In this document: positions 6,555 through 61,127 of the stretch, in pieces | Layout of the letters: each line of letters begins with the position of its first letter | How positions within the stretch are numbered: position 1 is the stretch's first letter | Notes under the pieces: model-generated | Database searches by the model: none | The model's input: only the letters and a program-made list of their open reading frames with translations | What the model was told of the DNA's origin: nothing | Translations under genes and position numbers: made by a program | NCBI GenBank assembly: GCA_028277745.1 | Contig: JANQFR010000068.1 | Span: forward strand, 1 to 64,000 | Reading direction: 5' to 3' | Source of the DNA: Phycisphaeraceae bacterium | Lineage (GTDB): Bacteria; Planctomycetota; Phycisphaerae; Phycisphaerales; Phycisphaeraceae | Length of the DNA: 64,000 nt

Positions 6555-6607
6555 CACAGCCGGCGGGCTACGCCCGCCTGGTCCGGGGCCGTGTAGCGGC
6601 CCGGCTA
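6555..6607. repeat. Family A palindromic element, copy 2
   Basis: Same two-hairpin element as at 747-799, with a few substitutions (CAGCC for TAGCC at the left edge, GTGTAGC for GCGTAGC). It lies between the convergent ends of metXW and the HAD gene. Confidence 0.9.
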
Positions 6608-6627
6608 TTTCCGCCGTGCAACTCTCT

Positions 6628-15343: not shown

Positions 15344-15423
15344 AAGCCGGCCCTGAGCGCAGCGAAGATCCGGATGGCTTGAGGCGGTCGAATCCGGACC
15401 TTCGCTGCGCTCAGGACCGGCTT
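15344..15423. repeat. Family B inverted repeat pair, copy 1
   Basis: Two 32-bp arms in inverted order. The left arm 15344-15375 reads AAGCCGGCCCTGAGCGCAGC onward, and the right arm 15392-15423 is its near-perfect complement. They are separated by 16 bases. The same arms, in opposite order, flank the transposase gene at 30536-31135. The pair lies between the convergent ends of tatD and the PilZ gene. Confidence 0.9.
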
Positions 15424-21349: not shown

Positions 21350-21402
21350 ATAGCCGGCGGGCTACGCCCGCCTGGGCCAGGGCCGCGTAGCGGCCCGGCT
21401 AT
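21350..21402. repeat. Family A palindromic element, copy 3
   Basis: Almost identical to the copy at 747-799, with one changed base in the spacer (GGGCCA for GGTCCA). It lies between the convergent ends of ybaB and the Rieske gene. Confidence 0.92.
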
Positions 21403-30503: not shown

Positions 30504-30516
30504 GTGGTGCTCCGAG

Positions 30517-30606
30517 ATCCGGACCTTCGCTTCGCTCAGGACCGGCTTTGACGTTGGTCCATGAATTGTTTGAGAAGCCGGTCCTGAGCGCAGCGAAGGT
30601 CCGGAT
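30517..30606. repeat. Family B inverted repeat pair, copy 2 (left flank of the transposase)
   Basis: Arms of 32 bp at 30517-30548 and 30575-30606, in inverted orientation with a 26-base spacer. One base differs from the other copies (TTCGCTTCGC for TTCGCTGCGC). Most of the pair is inside the transposase coding sequence and encodes its last 23 residues and stop codon. Confidence 0.92.
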
Positions 30607-31135
30607 CCCCATCGTTTCGGTCATAACGCCACACCCAGGCCCCCTGCGCGCCATGGCTGACGATGTAGTGAAAAACCGTGCGCTGGTGTTCTACATCTTT
30701 AATCCGGATCGGCTTGCCGCCGTCAGCCCACACCCGCCCGGGCTGCGCCTCCCGGATGGCGTGCGATGACGCCTGCCTGAGCCGGCCGACCTCGCGTTTC
30801 ACCCACTCCCAGCCATCCGGCAAGGCAAGAAGCAGGTGGGTGTGCGTGGCTCCCGCCGCAAGGACCAGGCAAGGTGAATTCATTTCGGTTGCTTTCTCCA
30901 GCATGGCCTGACCCAAACGAGGCAACACCGATGATGGGAGGACAACGGGTTTCGAACTGCGCACCTTTTGATAGACGGCCAATCCTGCGTGTTCACCGGT
31001 TGGCGGGCGGCGTTTGTAATCGCCGCTGCTGTGGAGGCGGTGTTTTCGTGAGCGGAACCCGCGTTCGTCGCCTGGAAGCCATTGGCCCCGGCAGGTGAGG
31101 ATGATGTGCCACCAAGCGCGATTCAGTCCCGGCAT
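30536..31135 (-). CDS. REP-associated tyrosine transposase-like protein (Y1/HUH family)
   Basis: A 199-residue protein. It begins with NRAWWHIILTCRG, the usual first strand of IS200-like Y1 transposases. The metal-binding HUH motif is His98-Thr-His100 in ATHTHLLLALP. The candidate nucleophile is Tyr157 in the helix RTVFHYIVSHGAQG, with the family VWADGGKPIRI segment just before. RAYTs are single-copy domesticated relatives of IS200 transposases that cut REP hairpins. The start at 31135 was chosen because homology begins there; the open frame extends further upstream only through the repeat and antisense to the oxidoreductase. Residues 177-199 are encoded by the REP arm. No canonical NHxHL or YxxNP was seen, so it is a divergent member. 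Confidence 0.75.
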   Translation of the reverse strand: MPGLNRAWWHIILTCRGQWLPGDERGFRSRKHRLHSSGDYKRRPPTGEHAGLAVYQKVRSSKPVVLPSSVLPRLGQAMLEKATEMNSPCLVLAAGATHTHLLLALPDGWEWVKREVGRLRQASSHAIREAQPGRVWADGGKPIRIKDVEHQRTVFHYIVSHGAQGAWVWRYDRNDGDPDLRCAQDRLLKQFMDQRQSRS

Positions 31136-31148
31136 GGGGGTTAGTGTA

Positions 31149-31222
31149 ATCCGGACCTTCGCTGCGCTCAGGACCGGCTTCTCGGACGCAAAGCCGGTCC
31201 TGAGCGCAGCGAAGGTCCGGAT
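31149..31222. repeat. Family B inverted repeat pair, copy 3 (right flank of the transposase)
   Basis: Perfectly complementary 32-bp arms at 31149-31180 and 31191-31222 with a 10-base loop. It lies between the transposase start and the stop codon of the Gfo/Idh gene. Confidence 0.93.
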
Positions 31223-32493: not shown

Positions 32494-32546
32494 ATAGCCG
32501 GGCCGCTACGCGGCCCCGGGCCAGGCGGGCGTAGCCCGCCGGCTAT
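32494..32546. repeat. Family A palindromic element, copy 4 (reversed)
   Basis: The reverse complement of the copy at 747-799, with one or two changed spacer bases. It lies between the start of the Gfo/Idh gene and the end of the AraC gene, the only copy of the five not at a convergent junction. Confidence 0.92.
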
Positions 32547-44675: not shown

Positions 44676-44727
44676 ATAGCCGGGCCGCTACGCGGCCCTG
44701 GTCCGGGCGCGCGTCGCCCGCCAGCTA
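44676..44727. repeat. Family A palindromic element, copy 5 (reversed, diverged)
   Basis: Begins at the base after the argC stop. The ATAGCCGGGCCGCTACGCGG half is intact. The other half is mutated (GGGCGCGCGTCGCCCGCCAGCTAA). It lies at the convergent argC-nth junction and supplies the nth stop codon. Confidence 0.85.
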
Positions 44728-45375
44728 ACCACCGAGTTGTTGGCAGCACGTCCGCCCCAGCGGGCACCCGTCGCCCTGGGGGTTGCGGGCCTTGCATACC
44801 GCGCGGCCGTGCCAGATGAGCAGGTGGCTCAGCAGGGTCCAGTGCTTGCGGGGGAACAGGTCCATGAGGTCGCGTTCGATCTGCACGGCGTTTTTATCAT
44901 CGGCGTCGGTGAACCCCAGCCGCTTGGCGATCCGGCCGACGTGGGTGTCGACGACGACGCCTTCCTGCTTGTCGAACGCGTCGCCCAGGACCACGTTGGC
45001 GGTCTTGCGGGCGACGCCGGGGAGGGTGAGCAGGTCTTCCATGGCGTCGGGGACTTTGCCGCCGAAGTCGTCGACGATCGCGATCGCGGCGCCTTTGATG
45101 TTTTTCGCCTTGTTGCGGAAGAAGCCGGTGGTGCGGATCAGCTCTTCGATCTTTTCAACCGGCGCGTCAGCCATTTTCTGTGGGGTGGGGTAGGCCTTGA
45201 AGAGGGCGGGGGTGACCTTGTTGACGCGCACGTCGGTGCACTGGGCCGAGAGGATGGTGGCCACGAGCAGCTCGAAGGCGTTGCGGTGGTCGAGGGCGCA
45301 GTGGGCGTCGGGGTAGGCGTCGAGCAGTTTGCGGTAGATCCGCATGGCGCGGCGTCGGTCGGCGGGGTCGGCCAT
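44725..45375 (-). CDS. nth: Endonuclease III
   Basis: A 216-residue base-excision-repair glycosylase/AP lyase for oxidised pyrimidines. The helix-hairpin-helix is LPGVARKTANVVL, with catalytic Lys124, and Asp143 is in VVDTHVGR. The C-terminal iron-sulfur loop has Cys194, Cys204 and Cys210. The expected second cysteine (position 201 in C-x6-C-x2-C-x5-C) is glycine, and an extra Cys211 is present. I chose the ATG at 45375; a TTG at 45399 would overlap the preceding gene. The last codons lie in the family A repeat. Confidence 0.92.
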   Translation of the reverse strand: MADPADRRRAMRIYRKLLDAYPDAHCALDHRNAFELLVATILSAQCTDVRVNKVTPALFKAYPTPQKMADAPVEKIEELIRTTGFFRNKAKNIKGAAIAIVDDFGGKVPDAMEDLLTLPGVARKTANVVLGDAFDKQEGVVVDTHVGRIAKRLGFTDADDKNAVQIERDLMDLFPRKHWTLLSHLLIWHGRAVCKARNPQGDGCPLGRTCCQQLGG

Positions 45376-60289: not shown

Positions 60290-60994
60290 ATGGGACAGAA
60301 AACGCATCCATTCGGCTACCGCGTCGGCATCACCGAGGCCCACAAGAGCCGCTGGTACGCCCCCAAGGCGCTGTACGGCGAGCTGCTGGTTGAGGACCAG
60401 AAGATCCGCAACTACTGCGACCAGCGCCTCAACCGCAAGCCGCCCTTCGCGGCCGTCTCCGATATCCACATCGAGCGGACCCGCGAAGAGCTCAAGGTCA
60501 TCATCAAGACCGCCCGCCCCGGCCTGGTGATCGGCCCTAAGGGCAGCGAGATCGACATGCTGACCCAGGACCTGCAGCGCCTCACCGGCCGCAACGTCTC
60601 GATCAACTGCATCGAGATCCATAACCCCGACCTGGACTCGCAGCTGATCGCCGAGTCGATCGCCGAGCAGCTCAAGAAGCGGGCCAGCTTCCGCCGGGTG
60701 ATGAAGATGAAGGCCGAGGCGACAATGACCGCCGGCGCCAAGGGCGTGAAGATCCAGCTCTCGGGCCGGCTGGGCGGTCACGAGATGAGCCGCAGCGAAG
60801 ACATCCGCCTCGGGGCGATCCCCCTGGCGACCCTGCAGGCCAACATTGATTACGGGTTCGCCGAGGCGGACACGACCTACGGCGTCATCGGCGTCAAGGT
60901 GTGGGTCTACAAGGGCCTGTACGAAGAGGTCGCCGAGGGCGAGATCGAATCCCGCGCCGCCGGCGCCCGGCCCCGTGCGAGAGGACGCCGCTGA
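60290..60994 (+). CDS. rpsC: Ribosomal protein S3
   Basis: A 234-residue 30S protein at the mRNA entry site. It starts MGQKTHPFGYRVGI and has the KH-domain motif VIGPKGSEIDML. The C-terminal domain ends YGVIGVKVWVYKG, and a basic tail follows. Downstream lies a 133-base gap filled by the hairpin array. Confidence 0.97.
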   Translation: MGQKTHPFGYRVGITEAHKSRWYAPKALYGELLVEDQKIRNYCDQRLNRKPPFAAVSDIHIERTREELKVIIKTARPGLVIGPKGSEIDMLTQDLQRLTGRNVSINCIEIHNPDLDSQLIAESIAEQLKKRASFRRVMKMKAEATMTAGAKGVKIQLSGRLGGHEMSRSEDIRLGAIPLATLQANIDYGFAEADTTYGVIGVKVWVYKGLYEEVAEGEIESRAAGARPRARGRR

Positions 60995-61002
60995 CCCTGA
61001 GA

Positions 61003-61115
61003 TATAAAGCCGCGGATGTTATCCGCGGCCCCGAACCGCGGACAACGCCGCGGCCGCGAAAACCGCGGATAACCCCGCGGACCCGAAAACCGCGGATGAC
61101 ATCCGCGGCTTTATA
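61003..61115. repeat. Family D: array of four hairpin units between rpsC and rplP
   Basis: Four hairpins built on CCGCGG...CCGCGG lie at 61010-61028, 61036-61053, 61063-61080 and 61090-61108, a period of 26-27 bases. The array is closed by a perfect outer pair TATAAAG (61003-61009) and CTTTATA (61109-61115). The first and last 26 bases are inverted copies with one mismatch. It ends 12 bases before rplP. Confidence 0.9.
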
Positions 61116-61127
61116 GAGAGAAACGTC

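Follow-up and report, generated by a model that had tools for sequence, protein, structure and literature searches.

A REPIN-like hairpin array between rpsC and rplP of a Phycisphaeraceae bacterium, probably spread by a divergent RAYT transposase

How does an array of CCGCGG-based palindromes come to lie between two ribosomal protein genes, and is it a part of the operon or a visitor? We addressed this in a window of 64,000 nt, the whole stretch of DNA analysed. The array (61003-61115, 113 bases) begins 8 nt beyond the TGA stop codon (60992-60994, plus strand) of rpsC, the upstream gene for ribosomal protein S3 (60290-60994, plus strand; open reading frame with Pfam PF00189 Ribosomal_S3_C, E 7.6e-34), and makes up 113 of the 133 nt of the gap. 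A 12-nt leader, GAGAGAAACGTC (61116-61127, plus strand), in which GAGAG is by eye the sole ribosome-binding-site-like stretch, separates it from rplP, the downstream gene for ribosomal protein L16 (61128-61544, plus strand; open reading frame with PF00252 Ribosomal_L16, E 3.2e-50). The layout is REPIN-like, with two tagged REP units enclosing two degenerate ones. Unit 1 (61003-61028, plus strand) and unit 4 (61090-61115, minus strand), members of a repeat that we call family A, consist of the tag TATAAAG and a 19-nt hairpin (CCGCGGATGTTATCCGCGG and CCGCGGATGTCATCCGCGG, respectively), and are inverted with their tags pointing outward. Unit 2 (61036-61053, plus strand, CCGCGG-ACAACG-CCGCGG) and unit 3 (61063-61080, plus strand, CCGCGG-ATAACC-CCGCGG) have no tag, and their pairing is limited to 6-bp CCGCGG stems.

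A preliminary description of this DNA had reported four CCGCGG-based hairpins at a 26-27 base period, closed by matching TATAAAG/CTTTATA ends and stopping 12 bases before rplP, the first and last units being inverted copies with one mismatch. The period (CCGCGG starts at 61010, 61036, 61063 and 61090; spacing 26, 27 and 27), the inverted tags and the distance to rplP all hold, and the outer 26-mers, 61003-61028 and 61090-61115 read on the opposite strand, have one mismatch in 26. In 200 dinucleotide shuffles of the 1 kb around the element, inverted repeats with one mismatch or none were 14 long at most, and 0 of 200 attained the 26 of the element. As for the four hairpins, the four CCGCGG units stand, but the inner two are degenerate and the predicted minimum-energy RNA fold is a single 26-bp hairpin pairing unit 1 with unit 4. 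This fold is very stable, at -79.4 kcal/mol compared to -45.0 +/- 3.7 in shuffles (z -9.3; DNA fold, z -8.3) and, lying in a transcribed gap that adjoins rplP, would suit a resident cis-acting RNA of the ribosomal operon, a leader-like or processing hairpin maintained by selection whose likeness to copies elsewhere is secondary. An Rfam scan of the element, however, gave no family at threshold, and a ribosomal leader or riboswitch was rejected on that ground; an intrinsic terminator or promoter was likewise rejected, since a simple scan of the element found no intrinsic terminator and no sigma-70 promoter.

The gap, which had been described as normally only a few bases, turned out to measure 50-141 nt in 17 same-family relatives, and the element's repeat is missing from it in 17 of 17, which speaks against a selected resident RNA and for an insertion. 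Other genomes have elements of their own around this place. In G006 (L056, another genus), the rpsC-rplP gap contains an unrelated doublet of palindromes, whose perfect 24-bp arms start with ATATAGCCCCGGCC; in G009, a single family A-like unit, CATAAAGCCGCGGATG, lies just after rplP; and in G014, a TACAAAGCCGCCGATG unit lies elsewhere within the rplP locus. The operon therefore receives such elements more than once; for a cis-acting RNA, the doublet in the same gap of G006 could mean recurrent use, and the unit after rplP in G009 would fit as well.

Copies elsewhere in the same genome (G000) bear most directly on the question. The family A unit, a 7-nt foot TATAAAG plus a 19-nt hairpin CCGCGGATGNCATCCGCGG, was found by BLAST with the array and by a foot search allowing one mismatch at 13 places (20 units) on 8 of 99 contigs, a low copy number compared to typical REPs: C17:105687-105751; C35:10978; C47, the element under study; C53:80017-80130, part of a larger copy (C53:80010-80137) with inner units; C75:4855-4915 and C75:5416-5487, which flank a RAYT gene; C77:75125; C82:40636-40692, a doublet inside valS; and C84:27505, C84:45227 (copy C84:45199-45252, occupying the 92-nt groES-groEL gap), C84:46917-46966, C84:50314 (a symmetrical palindrome, C84:50307-50339, with a foot at both ends) and C84:58871. 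They thus comprise singles, doublets (also at C82 and C84), the one symmetrical two-footed palindrome and larger arrays. Another of the copies lies directly after groEL. A strict family A pattern, run on 20 chosen genomes, matched two, G000 (7 places) and G014 (1), with 0 matches in G000 for the reversed control pattern. A blastn search for a plasmid-borne relative gave no match.

These copies make it hardly credible that the array consists of chance GC-rich palindromes multiplied by local replication slippage and unrelated to any mobile system. CCGCGGAT by itself, as that reading would have it, shows no excess in the window (12 occurrences vs 9.0 expected), whereas CCGCGGAT-N(0-20)-ATCCGCGG was found twice against 0.01 expected, and the dinucleotide shuffles, the 7-nt foot common to copies on 8 contigs and the strict-pattern counts contradict a chance origin. 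A resident cis-acting RNA is also very unlikely, given family A units between groES and groEL, after groEL, in valS and beside two RAYTs. The preliminary description had proposed an inserted element that expanded internally, and had named two findings that would tell against it, an array present in all relatives and no other copy of its arms in the genome; neither was found. Insertion is borne out by the tagged unit at 13 places, two of them flanking a transposase gene, and by its absence from the gap in the relatives. Internal expansion is supported by the direct 27-base register of units 2-4, in which unit 3 is 85% identical to unit 2, and by the inner units of the C53:80010-80137 copy.

Which kind of mobile element, then, is it? 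Outer ends that form 26-bp inverted repeats, together with an internal tandem repeat, would agree with a MITE of a double-strand (DDE) transposon served by an ordinary transposase, as would the two-footed symmetrical palindrome. One-footed single units are nevertheless common, the shared module being the unit and not the pair, and visual inspection of the family A copies examined revealed no target duplication. Moreover, the gene between the two C75 copies encodes a Y1/HUH enzyme, and to a MITE we accordingly give little credence.

The C75 open reading frame (164-191 aa, start uncertain) has the motifs EPTHLHLL and YIQRHP, and matches NCBIfam REP_Tyr_transpos NF047646 at E 5.4e-9 (36.1 bits, below the curated cut-off of 80 bits) and Y1_Tnp PF01797 at E 0.0023, also below the curated cut-off. 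A second RAYT of the genome, on C35, is flanked by a sister family (family B) with the tag TGTAAAG and the stem CCGCGGGCAAYGCCCGCGG. A search with PF01797 alone gave only C40:14763 in this genome and missed both RAYTs, which were recovered by alignment-based search. Three named homologues of the C75 RAYT come from one Pirellulales MAG and from two loci of one Phycisphaeraceae MAG. Across 397 genomes of the class, a profile search gave strong matches (E < 1e-70) to two genes of G000 and in G023, G027, G033, G181 and G114; G079 has a broken copy. Weaker matches occur in 211 of the 397 genomes, for the most part to Y1 proteins of other kinds. In a tree of 28 Y1 proteins, the ten RAYTs that are unbroken group as a single clade (support 99/98), in which the two from the present genome sit in different sub-branches. 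All ten have the HUH and single catalytic Tyr motifs, the latter as YIxRHN/YVxRHN in eight and as YIQRHP and YIRRHH in the two G000 copies. An AlphaFold2 model, made for the L088 homologue (pLDDT 74, pTM 0.71; residues 16-42 not resolved), has the IS200/IS605 fold of the TnpAY1 superfamily: the first 30 PDB matches are all IS200/IS605 TnpA structures (such as 2xqc, E 1.3e-5) or the TnpAREP-REP complex of E. coli (4er8, E 1.7e-3).

The C75 RAYT has 164 aa compared to 173-181 aa in the other nine, which end in a PYxWITP-like tail. It is without this conserved tail and stops in the loop of a reversed REP (G000:C75:4890-4916) that supplies the stop codon. Judged by sequence, a REP insertion probably truncated the gene and, because the tail is missing and the stop codon is that of the REP, the enzyme may be inactive; family A may now be fading, or be served by another enzyme. 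In 5 of the 10 unbroken RAYT genes, the stop codon TAA belongs to the TAAAG foot of the downstream REP.

Is this pairing of transposase and hairpin peculiar to C75? We examined 11 RAYT loci with +/-600 bp of flanks, about 18.7 kb in all, and relaxed the unit rule, since the stems of G027, G033, G181 and G114 are 17 nt long and escaped the strict 19-nt rule. The foot near RAYTs is [CT][AG]TAAAG, and under the relaxed rule footed hairpins occur at 10 of the 11 loci (27 units), compared to 2 units in the 162.5 kb of background from 48 rplP and valS loci of relatives; at L089 the hairpins are imperfect only, under the unit rules used. When no pairing filter was applied, the RAYT loci had 26 TAAAGCC sites and the background 6; a 19-nt hairpin with 7 or more of its 9 pairs follows 20 of the former and 1 of the latter. 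Hairpins next to the planctomycete homologues keep this architecture but not the stem, which is CCGCGGATGNCATCCGCGG at C75 and CCGCGGGCAAYGCCCGCGG (foot TGTAAAG) at C35 of the present genome, CCGCGAATGGTATTCGCGG in G023, CGCGACC..GGTCGCG in G027, G033, G181 and G114, CCGGCGATGGTATCGCCGG at L087 and CCGCCGTCGCCGACGGCGG at L088. Pairing is kept as the stems change between genomes, with 32 double-change cells against 10.0 in shuffles and 7 of 9 stem pairs changed on both sides (18 units). As these 18 units were preselected as hairpins, the count is partly circular and the percentage paired is not informative; what carries weight is solely that the stem changes from genome to genome. G014 and G009 hold TAAAG-type hairpins though the RAYT matches there belong to other branches.

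Elements of this kind are well known, including copies in genes and feet that provide stop codons, to judge from the accessible parts of PMC3116915 and PMC3733652, to which, as to those of the other sources below, our comparison is limited. As in REPs, a footed palindrome occurs here in dispersed copies and, at C75, flanks a RAYT gene; as in REPINs, an inverted doublet is predicted to fold as one hairpin, and single units also occur. The closest likeness is to the GI-GIII REPINs of Pseudomonas fluorescens SBW25 (Bertels and Rainey 2011, PMC3116915), inverted doublets of tagged palindromes with a spacer that form one hairpin, in which each RAYT adjoins its own type and tandem clusters occur. 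The present elements differ in having the foot TAAAG instead of GTAG, about 13 places instead of hundreds, inner units duplicated within the doublet, and a planctomycete host. With the GTAG and CGTC REPs (Di Nocera et al. 2013, PMC3733652) they share a short hairpin tagged at one foot by unpaired bases, the occurrence of dimers and of copies within genes, and a tag that can give the flanking gene its stop codon, but the tag TAAAG falls in neither superfamily, [CT][AG]TAAAG being neither the foot GT[AG]G of the one nor the foot CGTC of the other. TnpAY1 classes 1-3 (Quentin et al. 2018, PMC6006769) resemble them in a small HUH/Y1 protein with hairpin flanks (REPtron-like) and in two RAYTs per genome, each with its own REP family. 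Their Y motifs, tabulated in Table 1 of that paper, are Y---Q (class 1), Y---NP (class 2) and Y----Q (class 3) vs YIxRHN here, and their feet GT[AG]G and CnGA vs TAAAG; the present enzymes thus show neither the Y---NP of class 2 nor the Y----Q and CnGA foot of class 3. The feet in these two broad surveys are GTAG, CGTC and CnGA (PMC3733652, PMC6006769), and planctomycetes are named in them for GTAG elements and for class 3, whereas the string TAAAG is not present in the available text of either. On sequence, the foot and catalytic motif of this REP/RAYT branch differ from those in the accessible portions of the surveys. The TnpAREP proteins of E. coli, Stenotrophomonas and Marinomonas (PMC8266576) bind foot plus hairpin, as is predicted here, and are known from in vitro work, whereas the present RAYT branch is known from sequence and a model. 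In GTAG as in TAAAG, the last two foot bases are AG. This in vitro TnpAREP work is of the Corneloup type.

Altogether, we favour, with a probability of about 0.82, the reading that the array is a non-autonomous mobile hairpin of REP/REPIN type, spread in trans by a RAYT, that inserted between rpsC and rplP and was then enlarged by inner tandem duplication. Against it weigh the few places occupied, the shortened C75 RAYT with its scores under the cut-offs, the imperfect hairpins at L089, the partial circularity of the pairing count and the hairpins of G014 and G009. In such a scheme, an element entering the gap would have had two outward-facing units and a spacer able to fold as one long single-strand hairpin. 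A divergent Y1/HUH RAYT encoded elsewhere, flanked by family A units, would most likely bind the single-stranded foot plus hairpin, and cut and rejoin it, spreading units in trans at replication forks. By analogy with TnpAREP, in which the last two foot bases are tied to the choice of a CT cleavage site (PMC8266576, as far as its available text goes), a cut at CT might be selected through the AG of the foot. The 27-base repeats could then have slipped or recombined unequally, bringing the array to four units.

These results link an unusual array inside an essential operon to a transposase, and the two RAYTs of the genome, whose REPs differ in both foot and stem, offer a natural pair for studying REP discrimination. 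Within the operon, the element is probably tolerated and not selected for. In E. coli, REPs near a stop codon are reported to lower translation (Liang et al. 2015). By analogy, the present element, so close to the rpsC stop codon, may reduce translation of rpsC or protect the mRNA upstream of it, as REPs can according to the accessible part of PMC6006769. With copies in rpsC-rplP, groES-groEL and valS, the elements settle in transcribed essential operons, and an effect on expression is therefore directly measurable. A wider proposal, which we advance tentatively and hold to be somewhat doubtful, is that TAAAG hairpins and YIxRHN transposases form a separate, phylum-wide Planctomycetota REP/RAYT subclass with its own recognition rule, which settles in essential operons and sets their expression. 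If so, such elements would repeatedly enter the tightest essential operons (rpsC-rplP, groES-groEL), even in frame in valS, and set the expression of all three; and since the RAYT frame ends in its own downstream REP foot in half of the intact genes, the enzyme could bind the end of its own gene.

The valS gene of the present genome (1036 aa, open throughout) contains an in-frame 71-bp family A doublet (G000:C82:40629-40699; L086:2130-2200), and the loop that holds this REP doublet contains a whole in-frame Y1 transposase in other genomes. Relatives of valS were collected by tblastn, and Pfam finds tRNA-synt_1 and Y1_Tnp in one protein in G004 and G026. With the Y1 domains of these two as queries, 56 of 201 genomes of the order gave matches, in 15 of which the match lies inside an open frame of 988-1529 aa (loci L188, L190, L192-L194 and L196-L207). 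All 15 frames have ValS motifs on both sides of the Y1 domain and inverted repeats of 14-31 nt around it, of the type ACGAGCCGCGACCGTGAGGGAGCGG; pattern searches found the HUH motif in 14 and, in 10, a tyrosine motif of the YVxx[EQ]Q type. The inserted domain is of NHVH...YVxEQ type, unlike the RAYTs of the element's clade. G022 (L189) has another Y1 type, MPDHVHLLI, at the same place in valS. In the open-licence literature, neither searches on a valS-Y1 fusion nor those on planctomycete REPs gave a description of it.

The window holds two further repeats. One is a second doublet family, ATAGCCGGCGGGCTACGCCCGCC...GGCCGCGTAGCGGCCCGGCTAT, present in both orientations at 747-799, 6556-6608, 21350-21402, 32494-32546 and 44676-44728, that resembles another REPIN family; the other, AAGCCGGTCCTGAGCGCAGCGAAGGTCCGGAT, forms inverted pairs at 15344-15423, 30516-30607 and 31149-31222.
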